The notes under the pieces: model-generated
What the model was told of the DNA's origin: nothing
The model's database searches: none
Seen by the model: the letters and a program-made list of their open reading frames with translations, nothing else
Assembly: GCA_021234155.1 (NCBI GenBank)
Contig: JAJEKV010000082.1
Coordinates: 4,818,685-4,882,684 of the forward strand
DNA from: Isoetes taiwanensis
Lineage: Eukaryota > Streptophyta > Lycopodiopsida > Isoetales > Isoetaceae
Length of the DNA stretch: 64,000 nt
Direction: 5' to 3'
Part shown: piece by piece, positions 37,257 to 63,131 of the stretch
Position numbering within the stretch: position 1 is the stretch's first letter
Layout of the letters: the number at the start of each line of letters is the position of its first letter
Program-made: the position numbers and the translations under genes

Positions 37257-38073
37257 CCATGCATGCGGCCTTGGGAAAGGCCAAATTCTGAAACCTAGAT
37301 AAACATGATTGAGGAACAAAGAAAGACAAATCCTAAAGATCTAAGCTCGAGATAAAAAACTAAAGATAATGAAATCAAAAATCAAGCGAGCAGGTTCTCA
37401 TTGAAAAACATAATGAAGAAATAACAAAACAAACCATAAGGAAAAAGTGAACCATAGGGGAGACATAAAAAATATCATAAATTATAAACTATAGGAAGCT
37501 AAAAGTTATTTAACAAACAATGCAAGAGTTCATATGAAATTAAAAGCAAAACTAAGAGTTCATATAAAACAATTAGAAACAGGAAGGCAGACTAAGTAAA
37601 AATATAGAAGAACATAGACAATACTGGAAAAAAGGGGAAAATACAAACAGAAAAGACCATAAAATGAAATAAGCAGGAATAAATAAGACAAAGATAGTTA
37701 ATACTTGAGAAATAACAAAATAAAGACAAGCCAGGTAACTAAAACAACTATAGTAGGAGAATAAAACAAGACAATGAAAGAAAGATAAATGAACATCCAG
37801 GGAGAATAGATACTGGAAAAAAAAGCAAATACATAGGAACGAAAAAAGCGGAACAATTATACTACACACAAGAACTAATTTCATACAAGAAGATAAAATA
37901 CCAGGAAACAAAACTTAGGATATACTATGAAAGCATATATATGATTCTTAACCAAAGTAAAACAACGAACACAATATCCTCAACGTGAGTTTAGAGCGGT
38001 AAAGAGTTTAAACGGCAAAAGCGAATGCGTAGCGTGATGTTCAGGATTGCAAAATAAGATTTAGAAGTTTGGA
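37257..38073 (-). repeat. PLE-B R1, outer (left) part
   Basis: Aligns with 56062-56952 but with many short indels and substitutions, for example agagcggtaaagag against agaacagtaaagag. It ends where the LTR retrotransposon begins. The T-rich sense strand corresponds to the intron of ORF-A, so the open frame at 37573-37911 is not a gene. Confidence 0.8.
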
Positions 38074-39625
38074 TGTGGCGTCCCCTGTTATCGGTTGCGT
38101 ACTCATCGTGCTCCTAGCAGGAGTTCATCCCCATACCGACTCCATCTTAGATCACAGACCCTCCACATAACTAAAAGTAGCGGGTTTCCGATTGGGAGTG
38201 TGAAGGGTCATTTACCCGTCTTCGAGGCCTGCAGGTAGCGAGGAGCGTGAAACATGCAATAATGGGTAATACAATAACATCGCATATCTCGAAGGGGTGG
38301 TCCATCACATCTTTGCATAGACAAAGGTAGGCCTTAATGCATATGGGAAATCTACCCAGGGCTCGGACTCAAAGGGATGGCCCGACTGGAGTCTCAATTC
38401 ATTCTGAGGCAATTCATGGCAATGGATTTGGGCAGCATAGAACATGGCAGGAGTTGTCCCTCCTCCACCCCTCCACATTGCACACTGTTAAGGAGTGAAA
38501 AGAATGTTAGGACTTGGCCTTGCTTCCTTGGTGCATATGAAAGGGCTATTCACAGGTTACATCTCAGTCCGATGGAAGCGGTGGGATCCCTCCCTCGGTC
38601 TGCATGTGACTCCAGGGTGACTGGGGGTGCCTTGTTGACTGAACCCGGAGGTGAGACCCCACCCCCAGGGTGTGAGGCCTTGCCGCTTAGTGGCAGAAGC
38701 CGGTAGACCTAGTCCTGTGATCTCCCATGGTAGCACTAACACACCATAGGGATGGTTCAAGTCGAGAACATGAACCTCTTCTTGATCGGCCTTCACCCTG
38801 GCCAGTGTGGTTCTTGGCCTGAGGCGAATCTATGGTGTGCTAGAGAGGCTAACTATGAAGCATCTACTAACAAGCTTGGGGTCACCCCTTCCCAATACAA
38901 GGAGTTCCAGGAGATACATCATCCATATACATCGCGGAAGAACTAAGAACTAGATCATCTATATCATAGAGTTAGAGTTCTTTAGTTAGAGGAAGATGCA
39001 GTATCTAGAATCTAGAAGGCTGCTATGGGCAATTTGTAGGCTAAACCCTCTTTGGTTCTATGACTAAAGGGTTTTGAGCTATTTGGTGTCAAATACGATC
39101 ATGAGTTCCTCCTCATTTTGAGTTCGACCATTGAAATGCTGAATGAGGAACTAATGGTGCAATTCTCTGGGGCAGTGGGGAGGCGGTTTGACCTTGGGGC
39201 AGCCAAAGCAGAGCTCTAAAACCTAGAAAAATGGGCAAGTTAGGACTCTACTTAAATAGACAGAGGTTGGCTAGGGTTTTAATTATCCCCACTTTAGGCG
39301 TGTAGGATAGTGGAAATGGAGCCTGTCTTTAATGGCTAGGTGGCCAAATGTGTCCCAGCAAATGTGTGCACCCAAATGTGCCATGGAAATATTGCACCTA
39401 AATGGGCCCATGTAGATGTGTGCCTAAATGTGCCCACACATGGAAATGAGTGCCTTAATAAATAATGCATGTGCACGTTAATAGAAATACACATACCTAG
39501 CAAGTTGCCCCGGGGCTGCCTGGCCCTGCGATAAGTGCCGTCGGTCGGTGGTGGTAATGCAGCGTGGCAGGCGATGCGATTATGCGATCACGGGGCCGGT
39601 ATCTTTGTCGCTGGAAATCCCTACA
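38074..39625 (-). repeat. 3' LTR of the 11.5-kb element
   Basis: Starts TGTGGCGTCCCC and ends about ATCCCTACA. It aligns along its length with 47964-49608 but is shorter, with many homopolymers one base shorter and numerous small gaps. Shared blocks include ggagttcatc, ccctccacataac, ttcatggcaatggattt and cacacataccta-type sequence near the right end. Confidence 0.8.
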
Positions 39626-42600
39626 ATGAATCTTTGTCGCGGCATGGGTAGATCTCTTGGAATCTTCACAACACGCAATCAACTTGATGCATCGATATAC
39701 TACTATAATACTTGCATATTTATTACGGTACCTTAAGGTAATATTTTTAAATCATTATTAAGCCATTACATTTATCAAATAACTATTGATTGTTAACCCT
39801 CTTTTAAAACAAGTGCCAATGGTTTCTATTATCACAACATTTAGTTATCACAATTTAACACTTTCATATACAATTATTATTTAAGGTACTCTTCGTTCCT
39901 TGCAACACATTCCAACAAAATTTGTGTTGCAAGTCTTCGCACCTTAAAATCCTGCATTAATTTTACAATATCTATAATTACCTACTTACTATCTTACTTA
40001 TTAGAATAACTCTAAGGTAATGTTTAAGACATTACTGTACTATTTCATTATCCAATTACTTATCACTTCATAACTTCCACGCAAGGTAATTATTAACCTT
40101 ACTTACTACAACATTTAAATTAATCAAAGTTTATCAATTTCATACAAAATTTACACTTCTAAGGTACTCTTCATCCCTTGCAACACATTATACAAAAATT
40201 TGTGTTGCAAGCCTTCGTAGCTCGACCTCCTTGCCCTCCGGAGCGCTCTAGGCCTGCAGGTCGACACTACCTATTATTAATTATTAATAAAATTTTGGTT
40301 ATATGGTGACCACCCCACCTATCTACATGGATGCATGGCTAATCTCCCGGCGTAGGAAGAGGGTGAATCTTCCATTATGGCCGCGGAGACAGCGCCTATA
40401 TGCCTATATGCCGCTCATGCCTACACCTCTAGTTGCCCAGCGTGGAGGATACCCTTCCCGTATATGGGGCGTGAAGGATAGATTCCTCCTATCAAAGCAT
40501 ATATGGGGCTAAAGGTGCCTTTCCTATCAATGCATCTCTCAATGACCTCCTTTCTCTCGAGGTCGTCTACTTCCGTGGGACAGAAGTAGACTTTCTAATC
40601 TACCTTCCACTCGTCCAAGCGGAAACGCAGTCATGCCTACATTGACATTACACCACGCCCTAGAGATCACCGTAGTGGTCCCATCATCGATAAATACGCA
40701 TGCAACCCATACCTGGCATAGGTTGCATGCGTAGATTAATCTTAACTACACATGAAACTAATCTAAACACAAATCGACATGCCTGAGCCGATTTTTGCTG
40801 GCTCCTTTAATGCATGTGGTTAACATAATTACCCTAAGGTAATATTTATGAATTAACATTATCATAGTATCGGATACATTACTTCCGATAGTACAATTAT
40901 ATTTACTCTAAGCTTTGCAATATTTAACGACTTTTAGATCGCGATTATTTAAACAATAACCCTGATTAGACCTATTGTATCATAGACAAGGTTTTAATTA
41001 TCATACACAAGAATTAGATGTGCTTCTTATTCTCTTCCTTGGGTCCTGCATTACCCTTGGAAGTATATCCCTAAGATGCACTTAAGTATATCTTAATTCT
41101 ATTTTCTATTTATATTTATAAGGACCCGAGGTCATATAACTATCCTTGGAAGGAATTGCATCCTTGCGAAGGATTAATTAACATGCTACCTCACATTACT
41201 GTTGTTATTTAACTTATTTCCCTATGATACATATACATACAACAATTTCTATGCAGTTATTAGGATATATCTAACTTATCAATAAGACATATTAAAGCTT
41301 ATAATGCATGCGCACACCTTACCTAAGGCTAGAACGCATCCACCCATTGAGCCGGCGTCGAGTACTTTGGAGATGACTTGGTCGTTGCATTGCTCCCATA
41401 CTTTTGCTCCACTTCATTGGTGTAGTTAGCTACTACGTCAGTCTCGCACGTTGAAGGCCTCCTGAGCACTAAGGTATCTATCTATCTTACGCTCTATTTG
41501 CTTCGGCCATTGCCGGAGTGAACTCTATTCTATGGGTCGGTCAATTCGATGCAAGTACGTTCAATCATAAGATTGAGCCCTCCCACTTTCTTCAAAAAGA
41601 AAATGGTCCTGCACCCCTTCAATGACGTTGTACACAACATCATATCTATTCTCTCCCCTTAAGAGGTTATACGCTTCTTACTTAGCGCATTAATTTACTA
41701 GCCTTAGCTGACATATATAACCATCTAAGATAGATGCACATATTATGTTATCATTTATTTCAATATAGTTATGGGTTACCTACTTAGCTAGAACGATTCT
41801 AAACTACAAGGTTTTGTCATCATGACAATTCCTTTTGTCCCACAAGACTATTTGATTACTATAATTCTTATTTTAGATGTACCTTACATGTATTATTCTT
41901 TTATATTCTAGAGATTCCCCCTTCCTTAGTTATTTAAACTCTTGGAATATTCCTACCAATCGAATTGATGTCATCGTAACAAGTTGGCCGGACTTGTTAG
42001 ATTACTTCTTTTCTTTCGTTTGGATTATTCTTTTGGAGGTACTAGATTTATACATGGTCAACAATTATCTTAGTAATGATTCCTTCTTAGCGAGGAGATC
42101 AATCTCACCAAGTGGTTTCAATACGTTGGATGGCTGTTAACAATCGTGTATAATTTTAGTCACTCCTATGCGTTTCCTTCCCAATCCTTGACGCTTAGCT
42201 CAATATTGGGGCAATCCTTTCAACGAGAATATCTGGAAATGCCTTCTAATCCCAATATGGATGTTACCATCCCTACATTTAACCTACTAGGCCCCATGGC
42301 CTTAGATCCTTGAGCTTGCTAGAAGCTCATCCGCTCGTTGCCTGCTTGGAGTAGCAAGGTACGTTCTTCTGAGTCGCTCGATACTTCAGTCTCCTTGACG
42401 GTGGCTCCTCTTTGATGTAGAGGTTGACTTTGTTCATTAGAAGCCTCTCATTGCTGGTGGCTTGATGGTGTAGTTGATCACTTGAAATCTTCCATGCCGC
42501 TTTTCGAAAGCCTGAAGGTGGCGCCGTTGAAAAAAAGAACTTTCATCTTGAACTTTTTGTCTTGGCAGCTAAAGAACGACTATGTATCTGATATTGTTTC

Positions 42601-45600
42601 TTTGATTCCATCGATGTCTCATACGTCGAGTCCTCTTGTGGTTATCGTGTTGAGGATGTTGATTGCTTCAACCCTGCAAATTGCCTGACATCTCTTCCTT
42701 TGATGTGTTACACTATGGGGGGAAGGAATAACAGGGGAACTATACATGCAAAATATATAGCTTACATAATTACAATTACCACTAGAGCTATTAGGTCCCC
42801 CTTGTGCCTCCCTTCGAGTTGCACACCTACTCCGTGGCGATGTCATCGGTGTTCCTCCGGTGCAATGGTGTTGATGGTACGTTGGCTCGTACTCCGGGGT
42901 AACTCGTTGATATACTTGGGCCCTCCAATGTTTGTCGGCTATGGCACAACACGCTTTGCATCACATTCTAACTAAAGGTGTGCTGGTCGTTGATGTTTCG
43001 ACATTTCGATCTGCTTCCTGATGTTGTTCTCGGGCGGTAATTGTTCCCCCCTTCATGATACTTGAAGCTATTTGAAGGCGTCTCTTGAGGCTGTGCGCGA
43101 TTCCTTTGGCTATACTCCTCTGGAGTTGTTCTCTTCTGCAGTTGTTCTTTGAATCATCCATCATTGGGTTCACTAAGCTGCATGCAAGTCCGCGTGCAAG
43201 TCATCGGCTCGCCTCGCCTAGTTGCTTCTCCATCGAGCTTCCAAACTTCCTTGTTTGATCCCCTCGATCACATGTCTTAGACGTTGTCACGTTCCACAGT
43301 GCTATGCCGTCTTCCTGTCTTGAGGTACCTTCCGGTGGCTTTGATTGTGCTCGTCAGTTTTGATCCTCCTGTTGCTTCTAGAGAGCTCGTGGAAGAAGTC
43401 GGTTGCTAGTACTTCTCCAGCTTTCAGTTCCTGACCTCCCTCTATGCATGTCGATCTCTCTGGCAAGTAAAACATCATGGCTCTCCTCCCTGCTGGCTAT
43501 GTTGTCGGGGTGATGGATCCTTATATCTGCGCAGCTTGACCCTTGAGTTGAAGAAGTACTTGCCTTAGATATACTCTTGTCGTTGAATAGCCTGGCTATT
43601 ATCTTGAACTCTCTTTTTGCCGAGGGTGCTTCAGTTGCTATCCTTGTCGTTAAGGTGTCGAATGCTTCTACTTTGGGCATTTGATGTCCCACATGTCGAA
43701 GATATGATCGACTTCTTCTCTCTAATTACTGGTAGGAGTACCCGATGAAGCCATCACCTAGTTGTTGAAGGCATATCTCCTCGTCGCAGTGCCTTTCGTA
43801 AGTGCATCTCCATCTAATACACGTGTCATAGCGCATCACCCTATATTACCACAAGGTGGAATTATGGTCGTCGAGATGTTGCCTTCTTAGTTGGCTCGTT
43901 GATGTCGGGTCGTTCCTCCCTCTATTGTTGAGGCCACTCGTGTCATAAGTTCGTCAACTGTTGCTGCTGCCACAAGATGTAGTGTTGCGTCCTGACGATG
44001 TCCTGGTGCAGCGCTGATGATCTTGACATGACCGGTGTTGTCTCTTATTCTGACATTGGGTGGACGAGCGGTCTTCTACTTGAGGGCACTTCCCGAAGTG
44101 TTTGGAGTCGAAGGTTTGCTTGGCCTCTGGTCGTTCTCCCTCGTACTTGCTCTTTCATTTTGATCTTGGGCTATAGTTGTGCTTCCTTGCTTCCTCCTTT
44201 GGTAGTCGAAGTGAAGGAGCTTCCTGATCTAAGCGCTAAATCCGTAAAACATGACTCTAAACTCATGTTTCTCCACTATATCTGTGAACACCCGAGATAT
44301 ACAATAGACATATACGTATTTACATTGGGATTTTAATTCATCCACTTTTCCAAAACAACTACGAAAATCTACTTAAATGTTTATACTCCTTTAGGATTTT
44401 CCCTCCTCCTATCGCGTTGATTATTCGGTGTTGCTGCATCTTCTTCATTCTGGTTGACTCCGGGATTCCTTGAGATGCTGCTACTATTGTTGAGCTTCAT
44501 GTCTGATCCAAGCTCGTCACCCCAAGTTGCGAAGAGTGTTCGTCGATGTGATCCCTTGAAAAAGATGCTCCTCGTTAATTTGTATGTCCGTCGTGAGGAA
44601 TGCGGTGACCGCTCAACGTCCCTACATGCGGTGTGTCGTTGCAGGATTGCCGATGTGCGGTGCCGCTGGTCGCTTGAGTAGGATCATCCGACTGTTGCAG
44701 TTGGGCATTCTTGAATGTCTTCGAAGCTCTGAGATCGTGGTTGGTAGGTAGGCAGGCATTGTCATTCCTCCGCAGGTTGAATTTCTGAGTGCGACTCCTG
44801 TTGCTTGGGCTTTGCTTCATTCCGAGGTGGCTCTCCTGTGCCTGGAAGTGTGGTTTGTACCTGCTGGCTAGGTCGTCTCCTCCGTCCTTTGGGTCCTATC
44901 CATTCGAGTCTCGCACTCCTTGGCTGACATAGTAAAGTCGTCCTTCCTTTGGCTTCTAGGTGTTTCTGGGTCCAGAATTCTTGTTCGAGCGGAATATTTT
45001 CCTCCTTGATCTTGCTCCTAATGCTGATGTAGGCCTTCAAGTCGGAGATGTTCCCTAATATGCGTCTCCTCCCCCTCCTGGTCTCCTACTTTTTGGAACC
45101 GATGAAAGTTCTCCTGCTGGTGCAAGGGAGCTGGAAGCTTGTCCTGGTCAGCCTTAGGTGCTTTGTGGTTGCCTAGCTTGGTTGCTCCTTTTGTTGACGT
45201 TGCATGACATTCGCTTGTGCTACTGGGCTGCAAGGTCGTGGTGGTCTTCCCTCCGGTTTGTATACGCTCCTTGTGTCGCCATGACTTCTCCCCTCGACGG
45301 AAGATTATGCCCTCTGGCTCTAGCTCGTGATGCTAACGCAGCATCGATGTCTAACGGCTTCCTGCACCTGTATTTTGCTGCCTTGCGTTCTTCCATTTGA
45401 AACTCATGTACGTCGAGTCGGTGAAGGCGTCGAGATCTAGACGTGGACGTGGACGTGGACGTGGACGTGGTAGCCGGGAGGTTGACATCTAGAAGATTCT
45501 TGATGGCGTTGGTTACCAAATATTCTTCCCATTTGATGAAGATTGATGATAGGCCGGTGGTGTTCTGTTCTACTCGTTTGTCGGTTGAGGTGTTTGTCGT

Positions 45601-46440
45601 TGTGCTTCCCTCTCTTGGGTCTGTCTTTTCGGTCTCCTCTCCTTATCTGTGTGTACATCGGCTGAGTCCTTGATGTCTTCAAGAAGTTGCGCCTCTATCT
45701 CTTCTGTGGCTCTGGCCCTGTAATTCGAAAGCAACGCTCGTATATCCTCGAGTGCTCTCCTACAACATTCTGGGCTCTATAAGCAAGCAAGATGGTTCGA
45801 GCAGCATTACTGGAGACATATCTATAATCTACATGGACATTAGGACGTGTGGTATGGCATGACATGAGGGTTGTTTTGCAAAACCTCCATGATGTTTGAG
45901 GCATATTCTAAGGTCCTAGCAAAGTTGGTTTGGGGGAGCGGTCCAATCTCTACACATGGAGTGACTTGGGCAGCTCTAGGCTCTAGCTCCTTTCTAGGTA
46001 TCTTGGCAATAGGGAGTGTCAATGTGGCGGCTATATAAGTCAAATTCTATTAGAAGGACACAGAATTAGGTCAAGGTTTATGCCTTTGGCTCGAGCAGAG
46101 GTGATGTACAAACAGTTGGACTTGGGTTGCTATGCCGAGGTCTAGATGACTATTACAAAGGGGTGTCCTTGTGCACTTCTATCTAGGAGTAAGGCATCAG
46201 CTTTGAGCCGAGAGCAATACTTGCAAGGTACTAATGGGGTATGCTTCTATTTACAAACAAACCACAGTTTGGAAAAACAATTCAAGGGTTTGAGCAATTT
46301 TGGTCATTTTGAGCTGGGGTTTGACATTTCTAGCCTAAATTGAGGTCATAAATGGATTGTAGACTGTCTAACGGTCCTGTTGCAACAAATTTCAGGCGAT
46401 TTGGAGCTCTGTAGCTCAAGTTATGGAGGTTCAAAGTTTG
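39626..46440. other. Interior of the 11.5-kb LTR element, no recognisable genes
   Basis: AT-rich at 39700-41300, with repeated aaggtaat motifs near 39736, 40015, 40085 and 40836. Two near-copies of a segment containing cttgcaacac and gtgttgcaag can each fold into a 10-bp-stem hairpin: 39899-39933 and 40177-40211. From 41300 to 46100 it is more mixed. Minus-strand open frames of 70-104 codons (42961-43173, 43378-43692, 44762-45682) are Ser, Thr, Arg and Gln rich and might be decayed gag, but no zinc knuckle, DDE or RT motif is visible. Confidence 0.5.
45441..45472. repeat. (GACGTG)n microsatellite
   Basis: Five or so perfect hexamers in the interior of the 11.5-kb LTR element. They give alternating Val-Asp, His-Val or Ser-Thr dipeptides in different frames. 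Confidence 0.9.
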
Positions 46441-46443
46441 GAG

Positions 46444-46510
46444 GTCTCACACATTGCGCCCAGCCTGAAAATGAGATTCTCATTATCTGTCCTGGCGCGA
46501 CGTGTGAGAC
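46444..46510. repeat. Leader hairpin H1 of the LTR element
   Basis: A 67-nt foldback. Left arm GTCTCACACATTGCGCC pairs with right arm GGCGCGACGTGTGAGAC except for one mismatch and one G-T pair. The inner part can extend the stem: cag with ctg, and aatgag with ctcatt. It is a member of a three-copy family (see 46657 and 47466). Confidence 0.85.
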
Positions 46511-46656
46511 ATTGGCTCTAAATGGGTTAAACTTGTCCAATTTGGGTGATATAAGGGTCTAATCCTGCTTGTCCCGTTGAGTTAGGCAGAATGGACCCCT
46601 TATTTGGTCGATTTAGAGCAGTTTTGGGCACTTTTGGGGCATGGTCTCACAGCAAG

Positions 46657-46723
46657 GTCTCACACGTTGCGCCCAGACCGATAATGAACTTTTCATTTTC
46701 TGTCCTGGCGCGACGTGTGAGAC
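46657..46723. repeat. Leader hairpin H2
   Basis: Same length (67 nt) and arms as H1, with only one G-T wobble in the 17-bp arm. The loop side is diverged but keeps aatga/tcatt complementarity. A partial duplicate of the left arm (ggtctcacag) lies just before it. Confidence 0.85.
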
Positions 46724-47256
46724 ATCCTCTCAAATTGGCCTAGGATGTCTGTTTTGACTAAAACAAAAGCTAAAACTTACTAACTCAACTTAATTAAGTA
46801 ACTTTATACACTTATAATTTACTCTAAAACACTTTGTATTAAACAAATTTTATCATTTACGAAATTAATAAGGCTCGCCTTTGATATGACTGGCTAAGTG
46901 CATATCTTTCTTCATTAGAGTTATTCCCTTAGCGTGTCGTAAGCGGTGCCGTTGAGTCTTCAAAATGTTGGACCAGCTTCTCGCTACTTCTTGACCCTTG
47001 GCCTCCCGCTCTCGTTTACGCTCTCTCCTCTTCTTGTTTCCTTGGCCTCCTTGGCCTCTGGGTCAAGCAGCCTTTGTCGGGAAGTCGAGCGGTCTGTTTG
47101 GTGCGCGTCATGTCGATCGGAGGCTTGGTGTCTATCAAGATGCCGTCTCTATCTAGCTTAAGGGTCTTGGTTCTAAGTCTAAGGCTTGGCTATTAATATT
47201 ATCTAACATTATTAAAGCTTAAATCTAATTAAGAATTATAATTCAAATATAAACGA

Positions 47257-47335
47257 TGCTCGCCCTCAGTGGTTGGCACGGGGGGGTTTTGGGGGGTTCA
47301 ACCCGTGGATGGGAGGTTCAATTCCCGCTACTACG
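47257..47335 (+). repeat. tRNA-like segment in the LTR-element leader
   Basis: GGTTCAATTCC at 47315-47325, with flanking ggga/tccc pairing, is a good T-arm/B-box. Upstream cgccctcagtggttggcac resembles an A-box. G runs occupy the anticodon-arm position, so a working tRNA is unlikely; a SINE insertion is possible. Confidence 0.35.
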
Positions 47336-47465
47336 GGAATTCTTTTAAGATGAGGTTCAAATAGATTGGAAAGCTAGACTAATCTAGCTAATTCCTAGGT
47401 TGAAATTCGGATTACCGAGTTACTTTTCTAAAATTTTTTACTTTTTAAACTGTTTTGAGATCAAT

Positions 47466-47585
47466 GTCCCACACGTTGCGCCCAGGCAGAAAATGAGATG
47501 CTCATTATCAGGCAGAAAATGAGACGTTCATTATCTGTCCTGACGCGACGTGTGAGACCATCCTATCTGGCGCGACGTGTGAGAC
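47466..47585. repeat. Leader hairpin H3 with internal duplications
   Basis: Left arm gtcccacacgttgcgcc, then two copies of a loop segment (ggcagaaaatgagatgctc and ggcagaaaatgagacgttc), then two copies of the right arm (47542-47558 and 47569-47585). The arms match H1 and H2. Confidence 0.8.
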
Positions 47586-47692
47586 CATCCTATCTGGCTC
47601 ACTAATTTTTGTCTTTTTATGTTCTCATTCACTTTAATTGTTACTAGCTACTTTAACTGCTACTAGCTTAGCATGTACTACAAAAATGAGAA

Positions 47693-47950
47693 AAAAATTT
47701 CCCCATTCTTCGAGGTTTGAGAATCCTATTAAGTTAATACTACTGGGAGCATGGTCAAAATTTCCCCATTCTTTGAGGTTTGAGAATCCTATTAAGTTAA
47801 TACTACTGGGAGCATGGTCAGTGCTTTGCTCTTGGTCTCCAAGAACATTGCATGGTCAAAATTTCCCCATTCTTCGAGGTTTGAGAATCCTATTAAGTTA
47901 ATACTACTGGGAGCATGGTCAGTGCTTTGCTCTTGGTCTCCAAGAACATT
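47693..47950. repeat. Tandem repeats next to the primer binding site
   Basis: Three copies of a 60-bp unit containing gaggtttgagaatcctatta and ending ggtcaaaattt or ggtcagtgc. A longer unit of about 120 bp, including cttggtctccaagaacattg, is partly duplicated. The last copy runs straight into the primer binding site at 47952. Confidence 0.9.
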
Positions 47951-47951
47951 G

Positions 47952-47963
47952 CTCTGATACCAC
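47952..47963 (-). other. Primer binding site, tRNA-iMet type
   Basis: The minus strand reads TGGTATCAGAGC, complementary to the 3' end of plant initiator tRNA-Met, the usual primer site of plant LTR retrotransposons. It touches the LTR end at 47964. Confidence 0.93.
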
Positions 47964-51925: not shown

Positions 51926-54331
51926 CTAGAATAAGATAGTCATGCTTACATGAGTTTTTTTTAGAGATCTTGAGAAGTCGTCGATTTCAAAAGGTAAACT
52001 GGGAAAGCTGTTGGTCCTCAGAGTGTTGAGAACAATTCTAAGCAGATCTTTTTTCATGAAGCCATTGTTGCAGAAAGCCATGATAAGATCATGCATGTCA
52101 GCAACAGCCTTATCCAAGTTTGAATGGGCATATATGTATGGAAAAATCTGTGAGACTATTACTTTGCATGCTTGACCATATGGTATGCACCCACTGGCCC
52201 TGATGAACTTAAAAACTTCAAACTCCAGATTTCTTCTTTTGTCATACCTGGTATACTGAAATGTGCCAGTATTTGAGTCCAACACTTGGACTGTGATATT
52301 GAGGAAGTTAACTTTATATCCCACATTGGAGCCTTTCTTGTATACTGTCTCATTTTTTATTCCCAGATGTGACATATTATAAACAGTACAGTCAGAGATA
52401 GTGGAAAAGAATTCAAGTAAGTCACCACCATTGATTATGCAAAGATCATCAATATATCTGAAAGCACTCTGGAATCTTGGGATGTCCTGTACCCTATTAA
52501 GGTGTGCTAATTTCATAATGAATCTGAGTTCGTACCATGCCAGATACAGATTACACCATGCAGGACTGCACGAGAATCCCATGGGGATGCCTTTCTTTTG
52601 CCTCCAAATTTCTTTGCCCATCTGAAGGTAACAATGGGAAAGCAGCCAATTGTTGAACTTTATGAAGTCAGGTCTAGAAACAATTGACCATTTAGTCTGA
52701 GAATCAATATTAATCTTCATCCACTTGGAAGAGAACACAGAATTAGTCCTTGTGATCACAAGTTGAGATAGAGGGCTTTTCCAGGCCATAAACTGCCATA
52801 TTAGACCACCAATGTCCCTGATAATATCCATCATCCCTTCATCTCCTTCCAGTGGGATGTTTTCAAAGCACTTTGTGATATCAATTGAGAAGACATTAAA
52901 TATCTTCTTTGGTAGGTTAAGAACAAAGTCAAAAGATGAGTTGATTAACCAACAAGGATTGACTTTATCTTTGAGCCAAAGTTTCAACCTGGCTGTATTC
53001 CAATGACACAGTTCGGGCCAGATTTCAATAAAGTTGTTCAATATTGACGTAATAAAATCAGCAACATCCGAAAATAAGGTGGAGTGTGCATTTGTCAACC
53101 ATCTGTAATCACCTTTATGAGCCTTGAATATTCCCATGAGATAGGGAAGTCTATTACTTGAAGGGCAAGGAAGGCCCAGGAAGTTGGTGATATCTTGAAC
53201 ACAGCTGTTTTTAATGTTCTCAGGGGTAGAGGTGATTTTTTCAAAATCTGGGCTATCAAGCCTAAGGAATGCCATCTCTCTTATGTGCGACTGGCAGATG
53301 AACGAAGCATTATTACTTGCCTTGTCAATTTCAGAAATATAGAGGTTCTTTTGAAGCCACAGCAGATTATTTCTAACATTTCCGTCATTCCATAGAAATC
53401 TCTTGGATTTAGAACCTTGCTTATGGATAGAAATCTTTTGTTTAGCCAGAGCCAAAATGTTATCTTTAATAGGCTGCAGATCTGTGTCACTCAAGTGTAC
53501 AAGGCTAAAATGATGTGCAGCAAAGAAGTGATTACAAGTTTGTGCAAAATCTTTCATGAAATCATCTATGGAGAAATCAGCATCAGGAATATGGTTAAGG
53601 CCATTGGAAAAAGCCATCCTTAACTTCGGGCAATGGATAATCTCCAGATTAATAGTTCTGATGTGGCCAACACTGGGATCCACAAATTTTGCAAGGCTAG
53701 GATTCTTGCAAGGACATTTTTTGGGGAACCCGTCTGCAAAAACCTCAAAAGGTTTGTAAACCTTGTCCTTTAGATTATCAATGTACCTCCAAGCAAACAT
53801 AGTGTTGTTCAGAAGGTCATCTGCTATATCAGGTAAGGCTGACATCAATACTTCTTTAAATACATTCCGAACACTAAATTTCTCCAGAGACTTGGAGAAG
53901 AAAGTGCTATGCACTATTTTAGACTGTGAACTCTCTTTGGAGATAATCAAATGCCTCTTTCGATTGCAATCTCGAGTAATGGATCGATAGTTGGCTGGAA
54001 TATCCTATATAAAAAATTGATTAATTTCAGAATCTGGTAGGAAGAGTTCCTATGTGAATTGGAATTCTAACTGAAGAGAAATATATAAACACTTTGCCTG
54101 CAATAGGCCAAGTTTAAGAAGGAATGAGAATTTTTTTGTCATACACATCTACCCAAGGGAAAATTCTTTTCATAAAAAACCCTTGGTAGACGGATAAGGT
54201 CAATTAGGAAGAAGATCACTCATAGGTAAGGTTAATAGAATATAAACAAGAACTAAAGAAAGAAACAAGAAGAAAGCATAATATATTGATTGAACACAAA
54301 AGTAAATTATAATAATTCTGACCTGGAACAT
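51926..54331 (-). CDS. Penelope-like reverse transcriptase, spliced
   Basis: RNA-dependent DNA polymerase of PLE-B. Proposed CDS: 54323-54331 joined to 51926-54004 (minus), 695 aa. The ATG lies in exon TG ATG TTC CAG and an intron of 318 nt (54005-54322, gtcaga...tttatatag) follows; without it the frame would have to start at TTG. Visible parts: CPC with GHIRT near residues 100-120, DKASNN at 230, FKAHK at 296, motif A DITKCF with Asp 378, motif B KKGIPMGFSCSPAW near 472-486, motif C YIDD at 520-523, then VNFLNITV. These match PLE-type RT, not LINE or LTR types. No GIY-YIG domain is seen at either end. All catalytic Asp residues are present, so it may be active. Confidence 0.85.
54005..54322 (-). 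other. Predicted intron in the PLE-B RT gene
   Basis: Donor CAG|gtcagaatt at 54323/54322, acceptor ttttttatatag|GAT at 54005/54004. Splicing joins ATG TTC CAG in frame to GAT ATT CCA. The RT frame has an in-frame TAG just before 54004, so the intron explains both the missing ATG and the stop. Confidence 0.7.
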
Positions 54332-54334: not shown

Positions 54335-55914
54335 TCAAGCTTCAGCAACTGGTGGAATGTTATCTTCAAGTGAAACAGTAATATTCCCACCTTTCGTAAC
54401 AGAATACTCTTCATCAAGGGAAGCATCAACAGTCAGCAATTTATTTTTTCCAACACTTTTCTTGCTATTACCAGCAGCAGTTTTTGGGTCAATGGTGACC
54501 TGAGGTGGTTTCTTGGGAGAAAACAGATTAGCTGAAAATTATTAGAACTGTTGCCCTGTCTAGCAGCTGGGGAGCTCCTGCTTTTTTGTGTCTGACTAAG
54601 CCTGAAGGAAATTGGCCTTAATGTTTTTTCTGCAATATCAGCAAGCTTACTGCCCCCAAAAGCTTTTTTGAGATCACTGTCAGGGTTAGCTGCATAATAA
54701 AGAGTCATATCCACCATAACCCTCCTTACCTCAAGATACGACAGGTATGCAAGCACTGCAGGTTTAAGAACATTATGGAGTAATTTAGTGAGACATACCA
54801 TTTTAGCAGTAGGAGTAGAATCAGGGAATGCCGCCTCCAAGTTGTTCAACAAAAACCATATTGCATGGTCTAGCCAGATGATACTACTGTTACATTCGTC
54901 ATTTCTTTCATTCTTCCTACTGGTTTTGGTACAGCCACATGTGAGAAAAGGACAGTGAGTCCTCCATATTTTTTTCATAAAAAACCCATCTCTCTTATCA
55001 TCTGAGAAGGCCATATTACCTTTCTGGCTGACATGAATACCTGAACTAGGGCCTTTGATGCAAACTTGGTGAAAGAATGAAATAGGAAATGGAAGAGGAA
55101 CTTCCTTTTTTGTGAAGTATTTCTCAAGTTTGGTGGCTTTGATGGTACCAACCCTAATTTCATCATCTACAATACCTGTCAGAGCTTTCCATGTCTCAAC
55201 ATTGATAGGAGCAAGAGCACCAAAATTCTGACTCATCCATATGGCGTGACCCCAAGCAGCAGCATCACATTCCACATTCTGTTCTGGAATAATAGGGAAG
55301 CGTGTGGAATTTTGAAGTGTTAGAGTAGGGACTTCATCAACATCTTCATCTTTTTCTGGATCATCTGATTTATTATCATCACAGCCAAATAGATCTTCAT
55401 CTGTTAAATCATTTTCAGAAAAGAGACAATTCTTGACATCCTCACTCATATAATCAGTAGGATCAGTACTATCTTCCACATCCACTTGAAGGGAGGACTT
55501 CATTTGATGGACATCTTCTAGGTGAGTTAACCCAATAAGAAATTTCTTACCAAGATCATCTTCGAGACACGTTCTAGCATAAAGAAGGTTCTCCATATCA
55601 TTATAGACAGTTGAGATCAGTGTTTTACAAACCTCCAATTTAAAATTTGCTTTCTTCATCTTGACAAATATACCAAACCAGCCATTGAACCCAAGATAAC
55701 TGACTGGTGATTTGTTCTTATCTGGCAGACTGTTCTCCTTTAATACAATGTACTCATGTACTTCCTTACTCCTTATGCAGGCAATCAGAGTCTGAACCGC
55801 AAAGTTCGGGCTTGAGATCTCACATTTATCATAGTTGAGAGATACTAGTTCCTTTATCCAGATCGAGTTGATATCAGTATCTTCAGGGTCAATCTGTTTT
55901 AGAGGTACCTTTTT
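54335..55914 (-). CDS. ORF-A internal exon, unknown protein of PLE-B
   Basis: Not recognised. The frame is open from 55995, but the likely exon start is 55914, after acceptor tattttttcag; phase fits the donor at 62301. The first-exon and internal parts together would give about 700 aa. Features: an acidic stretch with many Asp and Glu about 150-195 residues into this exon (near 55400-55330), then a Cys cluster (CPFLTCGC plus a later Cys) near 54930, then a hydrophobic helix (LDHAIWFLL). Near 54538 the frame breaks by one base in a T run. The alternative frame continues sensibly with a Lys-rich then acidic tail to a TGA at 54335-54337, whereas the uninterrupted frame stops at 54433. So either one T is missing or the copy is mutated. 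PLE-A has a diverged homologue. Confidence 0.65.
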
Positions 55915-56061
55915 CTGAAAAAATAGAAGCAAGGAGTTAGATACACCAAATCCCAAACCAAGGTTTTGGGTTAAACCCAAAAACTGAGATAACATTAAAA
56001 AACCCCCCAGACTGTCAAGACAGCCCTAAGCCTTAGAGACCAATCTTTTGGAACTCAAAGA

Positions 56062-57627
56062 CCATACACATGCAGCCTTGGAAAAGACTAGGTGCAAGCC
56101 TAGACCAAGCCTTGATTTGAGAGGACAAGAAGACAAATCATAAAGATCATAAACAAGATAAAAAACTAAGACAATGATCAAATCAAAACAGAACAGTTCT
56201 CAACTGAAAAACCTATGTGAAGAAATAAGAAAAAACAAGCCATAAGGAAAAAGTAGACCATAGGGGAGACATAAAAATATCATAAATTATAAACTATAGG
56301 AAGATAAAAAGTTATTTAACAACAAACAATGCAGAAGTTCATATGAGAAAGCAATTAAAGAAAGCATAAAACTAAGAGAAGTTCATATAAGAAAGCAATT
56401 AAAGAAAGCATAAAACTAGGAGAAGACGGGCTACAAGTAAAAGATAGAAACATCATACCTATAGAGAACATAGACAATACTGGAAAAAAGGGGAAAACAA
56501 AAATACAAACAAGAAAAGACCATAATAAATGAAATAACCGAATAAATATAAGACCCAAGATAGTTAATACTTGAGAAATAACAAAATAAAGACAAGCCGG
56601 GTAACTAAACAACCCTATGGTAGGAGAATAAAACAAAGACAATGAAAGAAAGATAAATGAACATCCCACAGGGAGAATAGACCTTTTGGAAAAAAGCAAA
56701 TACATAAGGAACGAAAAAAGGCAGACAATTATACTACACAAGGAGCTAATTTCATACAAAGAAGATAAAATACCAGGAAACAAAACTTAGGATATACTAT
56801 AAGAAAACATATATGATTGTAACCAAAGTAAGAGCAACTTCGAACACAATATCCTCAACATGAGTTTAGAACAGTAAAGAGTTTAGAACAGCAAAAACGA
56901 ATCTGCAATAAGCAGCAGATGTTCAAGTTGCAAAATAGCAGAATTTAAGTTTGCAGATATCACCACAAGTCATTTAAGAAAACTGAGTCCAATTTGCAGC
57001 AAAGCACTCAACCACATAGCATCATATGGAAGGATAAGCTCGGTTACCTGCACCAAACAATACACAAACAAGCATTAGACATGGTTGTCATGTACTTGGC
57101 GACAGGTAAACTATGAACTTATCCGGCTACTCGCCCTTCACCATAAACAACAATGTGAACAAGAGAAAACATAATATAAACATGTAGAGTGTTCGAACCC
57201 AGGAGATCAGAGCTTATATACACCATGTTATATAAGAGACCCATCACATGCAACACAAAATAGAAGAATAAAGAATACTTTAGCAGGAACAGCAAGGGAA
57301 ACAGTATGACCACCAATAAATAAAAGAAGACTGCTAAGGGAAATGTGCAAAGAGGAAATGAATAACAACACAAGATGTTAGTGACACTAAAAACCCAAAC
57401 AAAGGGACTTAAGGAGAAGGCACAACTATTTTGCAGGAGCAAAGTTATAGGAGGAAAATCCTGGAAACACAGAACATAACACTGAAAACTTAGAGCAAAT
57501 AGGAACACATAAGGACAGACTAGACCCTAAATACAGGAGGAAAGGAAGCTGGTATAAGCACAGAGGTAGCAGAAAGCATTGAATTCACATAAGCAGAGTA
57601 TATGAGATACATTTGGTATGGGAAAGA
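56062..57627 (-). repeat. PLE-B R2, inner (left) part
   Basis: The segment 56062-56952 pairs with 37257-38073, and 56953-57627 with 49609-50283. Since 56952/56953 is uninterrupted, it is the empty site for the 11.5-kb LTR element. The left edge is 148 nt from the ORF-A exon acceptor. Confidence 0.88.
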
Positions 57628-57783
57628 ATAGAATAGAATAGAATAGTTTTTTTTATCGTCCACTGAGACCAATCGGCCTATGGGACCCAGAAGGAGCGCA
57701 ACAAACTTATTACTGTCCGGGTTAAAAAACCCCCGCCCCGAAGGGTTTTCGAGGGAAAAACCGTGGCGTAATAAGAATCTTTG

Positions 57784-58060
57784 TCAAAGCGTACAAGTAT
57801 ACATCATCATGAAATAAATGTGTATGTACATGTCAAGTCGCGCGCCCGAGGACATAGCTGATCTCGCATGTCCATGACCTCCCGGAAGGTATGATCCTAG
57901 CATCCGCACGGATGCCGTGCTCAATGTCACATGTAGCGGCTGGCCAGGCCTGACCAACTCAGCATAGCGCATCCGGATTTGATCATATGCTGGGCAACTT
58001 TGAAGGGTATGAGATTCATCCTTAATGACTCCCATTTGGCAGCATTGACAAAGCCCGCCT
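57784..58060 (-). pseudogene. LINE C-terminal CCHC region
   Basis: The minus strand reads GGLCQCCQMG, then DESHTLQSCPAYDQIRMRY, the CxxC...H....C zinc-binding motif at the end of many LINE ORF2 proteins. An in-frame TGA lies just upstream. Confidence 0.7.
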
Positions 58061-58879
58061 GGCGTGGCTCACCAATCCATCTGCTGTCTCAATTCGAAGA
58101 TGCCCCCTTGCATGCGAATGGAGGCAATGAGTCTGGCGTCTTTTTCATGGGCAAGTGGGTGCGCGAGGTAGCATTGTGGGGCCTCGTTCCAATGTGGGAT
58201 TTATGTATGTGGTAGTGTCTTTGTCTTGACTGTTCAAAGTATTTTGGCATCCCAAAGCTTGCTGATGAAGCAAGCGTCAAGATATTGCCTCAAGCTATGG
58301 CGATCGCCTCTGTTTGCACATGTATGCACCTGTGCTCATGCACATTCCATCTAGCCATCCATTGAGCTCTCTTTTCCCTCCAAAGAGGCCTTGAGGCGTT
58401 GTGGCCCCATTGCCATGATATAAGCTAGTTTTGGGAGACGAGCATCGTCCATGTTGACCACCTTCCGAAAATAGACAATGTGGCGATCAAGGGGCCCTCG
58501 ACGAAGAGGCAAGAATCCACGCTTCCCTGCAAGAGAATTTGATATGGGACTGTGGACTTCACCCCTAGTGCTCAGACCAAGAAGACTTTCGCACTGCTCC
58601 AAGTCATTCCAAGTAGCGAGGGGATACTCATTGGGCCCCATACTTCCACCCCGTATAAAAAGGACGGGCTCCACTAAGACTTTGAAGCAGGTGTGACAGA
58701 TGGGTCCAATCATACAACTCCGCTCTATGACTATTGTTTTGCATTGCATATAGTGCTTTCCAATAACCGTAACTTCGTGGCCGTATGGATGTGTCCCGGT
58801 GCATAGTAGACCGAAACTCCACTCCCAAATATTTGTATGTGGATGCTACTTCCACATTACGCCCTCGATAACGGAAGGA

Positions 58880-59650
58880 GGGGATCCTACCGTCGCGGAA
58901 GATGATATGAAAACCACCTTAGTCTTGGCCAAGTTGGCCGCGATATCGACGCTTGACAAAATGTGTCCGTGGCATCGAGATGTCGTTGCATGTCCGCTGG
59001 TGTGTAAGCTAGGAGGTCCACATCATCGCGATATATTAACCGCTTTGATGATCCGGTAGAGAAGGTGAGCCCCGTCGCCCCCATTATCAGCAAGCCAGCT
59101 CTCCAATTGATCAATGTAAAGCCCAAACAATGTTGGGGAGAGAGGGCATCCCCTGGCTAACCCCCCGATACTACTATCAAATGGTTGGCTTGTCGGCCGC
59201 GAACCGACGAACATCTTTCATAAAGCCCGTACACCTTTGCATTACGCAAATCTACGGAACCCCGGTACCGCCGCAATCTTGCCCATAGTTTTTTCCCGAG
59301 GCACGTTGTCAAATGCCTTTGCAAAATCCACGAAGCAACAATATAGAGATCGGCGGTTCCTCCGTCTTCAACTGAGCTCGCAATGTGAAGATGTGGTCAA
59401 TGGTTGAGTGTCGGGTGCGAATCCGCCTGGGTGAGGGCCCGTATCTCTCGCCTCCGCCCGACCCGTCACAACCGGGCTGCCGAGAATCCCGGCAAAGCAA
59501 TTTTGCAAACACCGAAGGCCCGACCATGATTGTTCGGTAATTGGTCGCGGGTCAGGTCCCTGCCTTATAGATGGGAACAACTCGCTATTGGTCCCTTCGC
59601 TGAGGGAAGCCTTCTGTAATGCCTTGTTGAACAAGGCTGGTTAGATCTGG
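58880..59650 (-). pseudogene. LINE reverse transcriptase, broken
   Basis: Open pieces: 59023-59214 with GGLARGCPLSPTLFGLYIDQ and NGGDG; 58887-59126 with YRDDVDLLAYTPADMQRHLD (motif C damaged); 59309-59527 upstream. Changes of frame separate them, so no active enzyme is possible. Confidence 0.75.
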
Positions 59651-60319
59651 TATTATGGGCGGCCCCGCCCACTTAAGCAATTACGCTGCATGCCATCGGT
59701 CAGGGGCTTTCCCATTGGCAAGATCTTTGTAAGCCTTGTTCCACGTCGAATCTGTGATTTCCGGACTGGGCCTTCTTGCGGGGGTAATCTTTGCATGTGC
59801 ACCACGAGGGTCGTATATAGCTGTTTGCAAGTATTGCCTCCAGCGCTTTCGGGAGTGATGTTCAATGGGAACATCGCGGCTTTCTAAGAACCCTTCGCCC
59901 GGAAGGTCTGGGGTGACGTTCGAGGAGATAAAACATTTCTCTTTGATGTCTTTGCAATGTACATGGCTTTCTTAGCTTTAAGGAAGAGCGGTCTTGTCGG
60001 ATCGCATGTGGGCGTAAAAGCGGTGCGTGACTTGGCGGAGCCCGTGTTTGTGTTCCTTGCACTCGCATCAAACCATTGATTACGTGGGAAGGTTATGTTC
60101 TGGAGGTCCGCCGCTGGCGCGCTTATCCCAAAGCATCTCTGCCGCTTGAGTCCTAAGCACATCGGTCCGGCCCGGCCTGTCGTTGCTCTAGTGTAGGATA
60201 TTGCAAAATTTCTGCCGGGTCATCTATAAGCATCGGGCATAAGCCCCGCATGTTCATAATCCAATCGCGGTGAGGCATGTGAGGTAGCGTAGGCACGGGG
60301 GTTCGCACAACCTACCAAG

Positions 60320-61100
60320 CCAACTTCAAGTAAAGTGGTAAGTGGTGCGAGTCGATCTCTTCATCCCTATTAGTTGTTCCCACACGGAAGTGCTTGGCGA
60401 CATGCATATCTTTGCTTTCGAGGGCACCAGCATAGTCCACCACACTAGATCCTCCCCCGGTTTTCCACGTCTACAAGTGCTCTTTGCTTGGTGGGCCGAC
60501 CCATCGTGCCGATCCATTGCAGATTACCAGGTCAAAGATACCACAGAGCAAAAGCAATTGTCTACCATAGCGTGTGACCTGATTGTCATCTGATGTCCGT
60601 GGCCAAGCTGCTTCTGCAGGACGCAGCTGCAATATATCATCAGTCAAGGGATCAAATCTCATGGGTTGTTCTACCCCGGTGCGCGCATTGAAGTCTCCAA
60701 GGAGTATGACACCGCCTAAGCGCTTATCTTTCTTTGTATGTCATCATATAGATCGACATAGGGGTCCAGCCTATCCACATCCGAGTGGGTGTGATAGAAG
60801 TTGCTTTCTGCATGTGGAAAGTAGCAGGCTGCCACAAAGAGGGGTCTGCTACTGCAGTTTTGCACACGCACCCACAAGTACCGGTTGTGCTTGTCTGTCT
60901 TGAACAAGGAAACTGACTGTGCCAAGGCCGTTCGATAGTAGCAGGCAACTCCCCCATGCCCCCGCTTTCCTGTGCAATCATTGAAGATTGAGTAGCGCTG
61001 GTATCCTGGCAAATATCAGATCCATATCTGCAGCAACAGAGTTGAGACTATCTCCCTTCTGCCATGGGAAGCCCCGACAATTCCAGGAGACCATGCGGAG
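60320..61100 (-). pseudogene. LINE AP-like endonuclease, damaged
   Basis: Starts near 61098 with VSWNCRGFPW, the first conserved block. Then ADMDLI runs almost directly into PGYQRYSIFND in another frame (61012-60980), so the segment normally carrying the catalytic Glu (QE block) is missing. The block HGGVACYYR and GGVILLGDFNARTGVEQ (near 60710-60660) follow. Confidence 0.75.
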
Positions 61101-61576
61101 GCACAATTCCTATTTGTCGGCAGGGGCGGCAGTTGGGGATTCAGTGGCGGCAGCAGAAGGGGGGATGGCAGAAGTAGAGGCAGCCTGAGATGTGCGAGCA
61201 ACAGAAGGTGAAGCAACTTGAGCGTATGCGGGTCAGAAAGGTGTGGGAAGAAGTGGCATGGTCGTGAGCTGCTGGAGGGTTAGCAGGATTCGCAGCAGCA
61301 TTTGGCGGCTTGAAAATTTGCATCTTACCCCGAATCAGTCCTGCAGCTCCTCCCTGTCTGCGAATGCTTTTAACTTTGGCCAACTCGTGCCTGCGGTCTT
61401 CTTGTTGGGCTGGGGTCGTCTCGGTCAACATACAAAGGCAAAGTTCCTTCACCGCCTACCACCGGGCGAGGATAGCCGCTTTCACTCAGCATCTCGCATC
61501 GCGGAACATGACTACCCGCATGGGTTCAAGGCCAAGCCATGGCGTCTAAGCCCTAATAATAATATGTACTGGCACG

Positions 61577-63096
61577 GAGAAGATGTACAAAAACATGACA
61601 ATTGTAGAAACAAGATCTAAAAAATTCCTTCACATGTAGAGCAAGGGCTACATCATGAAAACTAATAAGCAAAAGCAGAATGTCAGTTAAACAGGTCCAA
61701 GAGGTTAGATTAGGCTATAATAAACTACTGAAGTTAAATTATATCACTGAATACAAATTAAATTCACTATGAAGATCCTGAAAAGCTGAGGATATTATAT
61801 TATAGGGAACCAAGGATCAAGAAGTCCAAAGTTAGTACACATGCAAGAACAACCTAGAGAAATTATCTAAAACAGAAATCTAAGGATACAATGAAGAATA
61901 CAGGAAAATGGTTGAAGTAAATAGTAAACAACTTAATAGAAAGGACACACAGCAGAAAATGAATATTAAGCGGTATATCACTGAAAATAAACTAAAGGAA
62001 ATCAAAGGGTTAATGAAAGAAGACAGAATACAACAGTAAGAGCAAGGATTCAGATAAAGGGCAACCAAGGATTCAGATATCTAATTATATTAAGAAGAAA
62101 ACAAGAAAAACCTAGGGAACATAATGGAGATTAATGGAGGTCATGGAGATTACTGGTGAAAGCAGTGATAGGGTAAAGGTGTGAATAACAAATCTACAGT
62201 AAAGATCCAGAAAATTCGAAACAATGTGGTAAAGAATAGAAACTGGAGGAGAATTTGGGATTAAGGGAATACGAAAGAACAAAACAATATCAATCTAAAC
62301 CTTATTTGCAGAAACGTCTAGAGGAACTCCAGCAGGTAGAACGTTGGGGGTAACTTGTGAAGACAGATCAATCGTGGGGAACACCAACACCGGAGCACTG
62401 GGAGCATTTGGAGCAATAGGATCTGCTGGGGCAGACAACTCAGGGATCTCAGGAGTGCAAGCAACTGAAATGGGAATTTGAGCTGCACCAAGAGTAGAAC
62501 TAGCTTCCCCTTCAAGATTAATGGGGTTTTTCGCTGATCCAGGCAACTTGGCAGGCCTGTGATAATCAAATATCTTCCTTCTTTTTTCTGCTTTCAATTT
62601 CTCTTCCTGCATTTTGATCAGAGTTGCCTTATTAAAGCCTCCTTTCCTTCTACCCATCAACTTAACAGAGCATGGCTTGCTCGCCAAAGCCGAGAATGGT
62701 GAACCCACGATGCAGAATGAAGACACAAATTTAAGGAGAGGATAAACAGAATTTCTTAGCTGGAAAATCAGAAAAATAACACATCCAGATTGTCGCACAT
62801 GGGTAAGCAACTGCCATTCAGTTAGACGTACATCAGCCGCCATCGTGAGCACCGTAGAGCCGTGAGGAAGAAGAAGCCAACCCTAAAATGCGTTTAACTG
62901 GAATGTCGAAGGGGAAAGTGGAATAAAATGGAAAATAGAAGAAATAAATGATATTAGGCATATAAATTGAATTTATTCCCCTAAAATATCACTCAATGGT
63001 CCTATATAAATGGAGAACCAAGTATAGGTACAGTTAAGTCCTAAGATCATGAGAAATTGGTAATCATGCCTAAATGAACATATGTAGTCAGTTATA

Positions 63097-63099
<3 letters not shown>
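61577..63099 (-). repeat. PLE-B R2, outer (right) part
   Basis: Matches 50282-51794 with about 1% differences by eye, including a 12-bp extra piece near 61890-61902 (atgaagaatac). It holds the upstream copy of the ORF-A first exon and, to its right, the presumed promoter and 5' end. Confidence 0.92.
62301..62852 (-). CDS. ORF-A first exon, upstream terminal repeat
   Basis: The exon that would start the ORF-A protein. ATGs lie at 62852 and 62843; the second has the better context (acgATGGCGGC). It gives about 181 residues: MAADVRLTE, a hydrophobic stretch, basic MGRRKGGFNKATL with Lys/Glu-rich helix, then a Pro/Ala/Ile-rich low-complexity tail ending SANK at donor AAG|gtttag (62301/62300). 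Splicing to 55914 would keep frame. Compared with the R1 copy it has a +1 G and a -1 T about 17 bases apart that alter a few residues (near 62377-62394) and then restore frame. No known domain. Function unknown; position and basic charge could suit nucleic acid binding. Confidence 0.6.

Positions 63100-63131
<32 letters not shown>
63100..63131 (+). repeat. A32 tract at the PLE-B right end
   Basis: Thirty-two A residues directly after gttatatat, where the R1 copy has only seven. On the sense strand of PLE-B it is a 5' T tract. Host sequence (COX10-like) begins at the next base. Confidence 0.95.

Follow-up and report, generated by a model that had tools for sequence, protein, structure and literature searches.

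Whether the terminal repeat of a retroelement can carry the first coding exon of the element's own gene, and how copies of such an element enter the genome, are questions raised by a 64,000-nucleotide stretch of the genome of the lycophyte Isoetes taiwanensis (contig JAJEKV010000082.1 of assembly GCA_021234155.1, positions 4,818,685 to 4,882,684; hereafter, the window). The element in question encodes a protein of its own, ORF-A (ORF, open reading frame), and a reverse transcriptase (RT), and both are enclosed by long direct repeats that each contain an additional open exon, exon 1. This layout is real and recurs across the genome. We consider it somewhat probable that the elements form a family of Penelope-like elements (PLEs) that lack an endonuclease (EN), in which the repeat, denoted L, would provide exon 1 for splicing to ORF-A and the RT, and in which copying would be primed at A/T tracts.

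Comparison of the window with itself bore out the sizes and coordinates of the 3.0-3.1 kb direct repeats that the original prediction had placed around ORF-A and the RT. Positions 50282-51800 match 61577-63106 at 98.4% identity over 1532 columns, 49609-50283 match 56953-57627 at 99.7% over 675 columns, and 37262-38071 resemble 56069-56953 at 79%. After subtraction of the inserts, among them one of 3,949 bp inside the 5' repeat (57628-61576), the 5' copy, taken as far as the T6 tract near 56003, measures ~3.1 kb and the 3' copy ~3.0 kb. As predicted, the exon-1 frame of each copy stops at a donor, at 62301 and 50995, respectively, with AAG/GT following in phase 0 (the slash marks the exon border), and the ORF-A frame opens at 55914 after the acceptor TTTTTTCAG, likewise in phase 0, such that donor and acceptor phases agree.

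Searches of the genome yielded at least 65 listed matches to the window RT (64 scored of 4773 candidates), at least 87 to ORF-A (87 scored of 3783) and at least 44 places matching the exon-1 part of the repeat (40 scored of 65). The exon-1 places are partly paired, with four pairs 7.1-7.5 kb apart around an RT and others 8.5 to 21.5 kb apart. The genome also has two MIR166 loci that exceed the cut-off, which points to a land plant. The first sample consisted of 12 loci taken in full, namely, W (the window element), C1086, C1045, C1018a, C1078a, C1078b (covered only to the edge of the extracted piece), C1018b, C1044, C996, C907a, C1070 and C907b; the second sample comprised the next 12 listed RTs, each with 4 kb downstream of the RT, C940 being omitted as partial. 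The search for further copies suggested in the original prediction was productive: direct repeats surround ORF-A and the RT at 11 of the 12 fully covered loci, C996 having the 5' repeat only, and 23 of 24 RT loci have a homolog of exon 1 on the downstream side of the RT (11/12 in the first sample and 12/12 in the second). The RTs of the 10 aligned loci are 52-95% identical to that of the window. Longer tandem arrays exist as well: at L037 (3544-4026) and L039 (2883-4045, element sense), the downstream repeat runs on into another ORF-A.

The protein encoded by exon 1 starts with MGR(R/K/L)K, mostly followed by GGxNKAT, and is conserved across subfamilies with RTs down to 52% identity to the window RT. 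There are 23 exon-1 copies in the 12 loci of the first sample, 17 with an intact start and 6 broken. The donor test was restricted to the 17 start-intact copies, which come from 11 of the 12 loci, and all of them possess an in-frame [CA]AG/GT donor in phase 0, 98-119 codons past the ATG. Of the 12 single exon-1 copies of the second sample, 7 are intact and have such a donor. For the selection test, one exon-1 copy was taken from each of 11 loci; C1078b, where both copies are broken, was excluded from this test and from that of the donors. The dN/dS ratio (nonsynonymous to synonymous rate, Nei-Gojobori) of the unsaturated pairs is 0.14-0.64, many distant pairs being saturated, and across the first 45 codons the proportion of nonsynonymous differences (pN) is 0.03-0.28 vs 0.25-1.05 for synonymous ones (pS; 8 pairs). 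In the wrong-frame control, the signal was gone in both wrong frames for three of four pairs and in one frame only for the pair W/C1045. Judging from these substitution patterns, exon 1 is under purifying selection. An upstream motif, ATGGC(G/A)GC(T/A/C)GA, is repeated in the close group and in C907a. An AT-hook-like appearance of the protein received no Pfam support in any of the five exon-1 sequences searched, and we do not claim such a similarity.

Inspection of the sequences shows an in-frame ..AG, in phase 0, ahead of the ORF-A frame in 11 of the 12 loci (ORF-A of C1086 is frameshifted), and the RT ORF begins directly after an in-frame ..TAG at all 12, its own upstream codon being a stop (the RT of C1018a is frameshifted near residue 36). 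The gaps between these frames are intron-like and keep a conserved phase in the genomic copies, and we treat them as putative introns. Because exon 1 ends in phase 0, it could join either ORF-A or the RT exon. An alternative that we regard as possible, although on balance doubtful, is that the RT is produced fused to ORF-A or as a reinitiated second cistron, rather than from exon 1 joined straight to the RT exon, and indeed, in the window and in C1070, an ATG in the RT frame follows the ORF-A stop, beside a possible donor. Against this alternative, the candidate donors past ORF-A differ in phase from one subfamily to another, and 5 of the 12 loci have none above the cut-off of a simple score (which also misses a CCAG/GTCAG site common to the close group), so that no consistent ORF-A-RT fusion is visible.

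The repeat has two recurrent boundaries. Its internal start reads GG..GG.GG..GG followed by T6-7. A scan of 450,000 bases (counting both strands) with the strict form of this pattern found it solely at repeat starts, once in each of 11 of the 12 loci; a looser form is present at 11 of the 12 loci of the second sample. The internal 3' tract is G(n)T6-7, located ~80-120 bp ahead of exon 2. The ends of the copies cluster at these T tracts. On the 5' side, the flank is followed by T17-T32 and then by the repeat, at the internal T6-7 tract, in 9 of the 10 comparable loci; the 5' end of C1078b lay beyond the extracted piece, and in C996, where there is no second copy for comparison, a T24 run occupies the likely position. 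On the 3' side, C1018b, C1044, C1070, C907a and C1078a (5/12) end exactly at the internal G(n)T6-7, with T11-T35. Random variation of the repeat ends, the outcome that the original prediction had named as telling against it, is not what we find: including two further loci described below, 7 of the 12 3' ends lie at, or within 15 nt of, the internal T tract, along with the 9 of 10 5' ends, but 5 of the 12 3' ends lie elsewhere. In the second sample, where repeat ends were judged without comparison to an upstream copy, a T run of at least 11 follows the repeat in 7 of 12 cases. The four-GG-run motif of the window (51794-51813, minus strand) is predicted to be capable of forming a two-tier G-quadruplex beside its T7 tract.

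The target of one element can be seen. Three sites related to that of C1078a are free of the element and consist of the left flank (82-90% identity), 84-94 bp, T14-17 and the right flank (98.6-100%), with AT after the T run in two of the three. The 3' T run of C1078a is pre-existing target sequence; some 85-95 bp of the target seem to have been lost on the 5' side, and no target duplication was seen in comparison with the three empty sites. Joined-flank queries for six other elements revealed no empty site among the best 40 scored candidates. The right flanks of 5 of 8 elements (C1018b, C907a, C1078a, C1018a and C996) are dispersed repeats, and nearly all other listed copies of these repeats start at a T run; those of C1044, C1070 and C1045 retrieved only themselves among the best 40 scored candidates. 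Among 10 flank-repeat copies inspected, a run of T14-T34 abuts the boundary in 8, and the other 2 show T15-17 followed by AT. With the C996 flank, L040 has 62-69 bp in common (83% identity). In L024 and L029, the terminal bases of the flank repeat resembled ends of the element, but these copies do not align to it and so were not counted.

The right flank of C1018a encodes an antisense long interspersed nuclear element (LINE) RT (RVT_1, expectation value (E) 1e-22; zf-RVT), and therefore the T run of this copy is most simply read as the poly(A) tail of that LINE; this is the only flank proven to be a LINE. We rejected the generalization that all right flanks are poly(A) tails, given that the T run lies within a larger repeat at C1078a and probably at C1018b. 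The flank data also bear on the possibility that the terminal T runs were made by the element itself, through stuttering of the RT on its own T6-7 tracts, rather than being target sequence. Both tracts are present internally and run length varies from T11 to T35, as such stuttering would have it; nevertheless, the T14-17 at the 3' junction of all three empty sites, the five flanks that belong to repeats whose other copies begin with such a run, and the T runs bounding the inspected copies make this explanation improbable.

The same boundaries have to be weighed against the view that these are ordinary PLE partial tandems, with a pseudo-long terminal repeat (pLTR) that includes some 5' coding sequence and with ends that are the usual RT stops, no A/T-tract priming being involved. 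Partial tandems, pLTRs with 12-22 codons, AT-rich targets and an internal start of reverse transcription are all on record for PLEs (PMC3846280; PMC11167929), and C1086, C907b, L037 and L039 continue into ORF-A while 5 of the 12 3' ends are off the tract. We nonetheless deem this view unlikely: the two oligo(T)-tract boundaries recur in subfamilies with RTs as low as 52% identical to the window RT, and the target T tract of C1078a was present before the insertion.

All loci of the first sample except C907b (11 of 12) contain, in the stretch separating ORF-A from the RT, a hairpin with a U-rich loop that pairs downstream. In alignment A3, 97.2% of 143 cells are paired, four pairs are changed on both sides, and one pseudoknot pair shows AU, CG, GC and UA. 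The pseudoknot covaries: none of 500 shuffles reaches the percentage paired, the number of double-change cells or the covariation score, whereas 12 shuffles match or exceed the observed count of double-change pairs and 40 do so for pair types, and slid control versions of the pseudoknot contain no double change in any case. The stretches aligned were hand-picked, and C1070 is partly out of register. A template mark or splice control are candidate roles of this structure.

We take the element to work like an EN-lacking PLE, a membership that rests on an order of RT motifs which we assume to be PLE-like and on the layout, not on a tree. The pLTR or partial tandem organisation is present at 11 of the 12 loci. 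RVT_1 matches the RT in all 11 aligned members, the match of the window RT having E 4.7e-5, under Pfam's own cut-off. No GIY-YIG endonuclease was matched by Pfam in the RT, ORF-A, exon 1 or the longer repeat ORFs, and no significant Pfam domain was found in ORF-A; profile searches of PDB with the RT and with ORF-A produced no match at E<=10, and single-sequence structure prediction for the window proteins was of low confidence (mean pLDDT, the predicted local distance difference test score, 33 and 37). Rfam detected no hammerhead in the window element at the gathering score (34000-64000) or at E<=5 (49600-57000). In having two ORFs and, as judged by known domain families, no endonuclease, the element resembles the EN-deficient telomeric PLEs (Athena/Coprina/Terminon).

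That the element belongs to another RT class with LTRs (long terminal repeats), and not to the PLEs, appears quite improbable to us. The repeats are long and LTR-like, the RT profile lacks PDB matches, and the RVT_1 and group II intron RT matches are weak, all of which would suit such a class; conversely, the RT motif order mentioned above speaks for a PLE, and no RNase H, integrase, protease or tyrosine recombinase was found by Pfam in the RT, ORF-A or the longer repeat ORFs. The two-ORF, endonuclease-lacking layout, too, fits EN-deficient PLEs as these are described in PMC6431247. Direct repeats with recurrent ends around internal genes are shared with LTR retrotransposons, from which the element differs in the weak RVT_1 match, the integrase, RNase H and protease that were not found, and T runs in place of TG..CA ends.

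Among known systems, the EN-deficient PLEs (Athena/Terminons of rotifers, and those of Selaginella) likewise combine an RT with a second ORF, with no endonuclease found, and are described as pairing with telomere ends (PMC6431247); their 3' end is thought to pair with an exposed DNA end, as is proposed here (PMC6431247 and PMC3846280). The presence of PLEs in Selaginella and the kinship of PLEs with the telomerase reverse transcriptase TERT are on record in PMC12477314 and PMC5718144, respectively. Unlike these EN-deficient PLEs, the Isoetes elements show no tandem telomere repeats in the pieces covered, end at T tracts and have 2-3 kb repeats with a coding exon; another difference is that no hammerhead was found in the window element. 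Telomere targeting was rejected, with no tandem telomere-repeat units in 45 pieces (279,358 bases) and 4 of 23 loci at 100 kb or less from the end of their sequence. Like the Penelope/Poseidon PLEs (Pen2a of A. vaga; PAc of Anolis), it has partial-tandem terminal repeats that include the coding start, an internal start of reverse transcription and AT-rich targets, but those PLEs, unlike the Isoetes element, have a GIY-YIG endonuclease.

The background invoked in the original prediction, that PLEs form pLTR-like partial tandems and retain introns, is published, as are simple AT-rich targets (PMC3846280), and PLEs are reported to start reverse transcription internally, with transcription likely from the pLTR (PMC11167929). 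The accompanying suggestion that the layout is an undescribed PLE type came close to the mark, but the principle has already been published: in Pen2a, the 218-bp pLTRs contain a putative TATA box and the first 12 amino acids of the ORF (22 if the tail is counted), the accessible part of the paper reporting no splice junction from the pLTR (PMC3846280). A search of titles and abstract openings, a scope outside which the key papers fall, returned no published description of this layout or of PLEs at A/T tracts. What would be new, compared with the published pLTR of 12-22 codons, is a putative spliced exon of ~100-120 codons.

From end to end, the element comprises a T run, L (with putative exon 1 and the first part of putative intron 1), exon 2 (ORF-A), a putative intron containing the pseudoknot, the RT exon, the 3' untranslated region (UTR), a second L and a T run. 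Transcription would start in L, and exon 1 would be spliced to ORF-A and, alternatively, to the RT exon, since every RT exon starts in phase 0 without a start codon of its own there; unspliced RNA would serve as template. In the target, the free 3' end of an A tract would pair with U6-7 at the end of L and prime the first strand, and second-strand synthesis would be primed by a T-tract end at the T7 with which L begins, such that tract priming could generate two identical ends without a dedicated endonuclease. More tentatively, and falling a little short of even in our estimation, the elements may be a new lycophyte PLE clade in which the repeat is a true LTR that holds the promoter, the start codon and an exon of ~100 codons that alternative splicing makes common to two proteins, the ends are fixed by oligo(U)/oligo(T) annealing to genomic A/T tracts, including LINE poly(A) tails, with no need for endonuclease specificity, and the pseudoknot marks the unspliced template.

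Several observations weigh against these proposals. The 5' exon-1 copy, which is the one expected to be in use, is broken at 5 of the 11 paired loci (C1086, C1078a, C1078b, C1018b and C1044), C1078b having lost both copies, and 5 of the 12 exon-1 copies in the second sample are broken; past codon 45, exon 1 is weakly conserved, with pN reaching or exceeding pS in distant pairs. TATA-like boxes were found in only 2 of 10 copies with a strict pattern, and the splicing of exon 1 and the promoter in the repeat are inferred. The 5' end of C1078a lies inside the RT, with no T run. On the 3' side, five ends are off the tract: C1086 and C907b stop inside ORF-A without a T run, C996 has no 3' repeat, and C1078b and the window element fall short of the tract. 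C1018a and C1045 halt 12-14 nucleotides (nt) before it, followed by 9-15 nt of filler and T21-22. In the second sample, 2 of 12 continue into ORF-A, and 3 of 12 have no T run, one of these having T10. Empty sites are available for a single element, C1078a, and the regeneration of a full 5' L remains unexplained if transcription starts inside L. Thus, the claim that the repeat is the source of the gene start stood in part: protein conservation and matching phases support a coding exon well, whereas the broken 5' exons and the off-tract 3' ends gain weight once counted, leaving the interpretation only partly supported.

Table 1. Coordinates of the element and its surroundings in the window (minus, element on the reverse strand)
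Feature	Position	Strand	Remarks
5' terminus, T32 run (A32 on + strand)	63100..63131	-	internal counterpart T7 at 51800-51794
5' terminal repeat, first part, with exon 1	61577..63099	-	98.4% identity with 50282-51800
Putative exon 1, 5' repeat	62301..62657	-	ATG to AAG/GT donor, 119 codons, phase 0; selection computed on 3' copy
Insert in 5' repeat, outside the element proper	57628..61576	.	no counterpart in 3' repeat at 50282/50283
5' terminal repeat, second part (putative intron 1), up to G-run	56003..57627	-	
GGGGGGTTTTTT tract	55997..56008	-	3' ends of copies: 5/12 exactly here, 2 more within 15 nt
Exon 2 (ORF-A), no known domain found	54433..55914	-	acceptor TTTTTTCAG/, phase 0
Conserved H-type pseudoknot between ORF-A and RT exon	54127..54186	-	covariation, 11 loci, alignment A3
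RT exon, 692 amino acids	51926..54004	-	begins directly after ..TATATAG/ acceptor
GC-rich hairpin, 3' UTR, just past RT stop	51875..51905	-	by eye; similar sequence after RT in other loci
GGTTGGTGGTAGG + T7, start of 3' repeat, four-GG-run motif	51794..51813	-	
3' terminal repeat, proximal part	49609..51800	-	window self-comparison
Putative exon 1, 3' repeat	50995..51351	-	
Insert X in 3' repeat, LTR-retrotransposon-like	about 38072..49608	.	TGTGACG...CACA ends, LTRs 78% identical
3' terminal repeat, distal part, apparently older	37262..38071	-	79% identity

The distal part of the 3' repeat (37262-38071) is, judged by its identity of only 79%, older than the remainder. Insert X separates it from the rest: the LTRs of the insert are 78% identical, the repeat beyond it is 79% identical to the 5' copy, and the repeat before it 98-99.7%. 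Possible causes are recombination between the young element and an old repeat already in place, conversion of the one against the other, or a misjoin in the assembly. Inside insert X, there is a short tandem repeat (47686-47950, spacings 63 and 101 bp), and the left part of the window contains a second, diverged pair of direct repeats (1842-4894 and 14234-16112, 69-74%). The ORF-A of the window leaves the reading frame of its relatives near the C-terminus. Just upstream of C907a lies a distant relative of ORF-A with 33% identity (G000:C907:31546336-31547652, minus strand), hinting at a second family.

The mechanisms of PLEs are poorly understood, among them the origin of the terminal repeats and the entry into the genome of copies that lack an endonuclease. 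In this Isoetes family, many copy ends are pinned to the base, the target is visible for one element, and the repeat contains a coding exon, so that both A-tract priming and the use of one exon for two proteins become directly testable. If the proposed mechanism is correct, the search for DNA ends by base pairing, as envisaged for EN-less PLEs, would extend from telomere repeats to A/T tracts.

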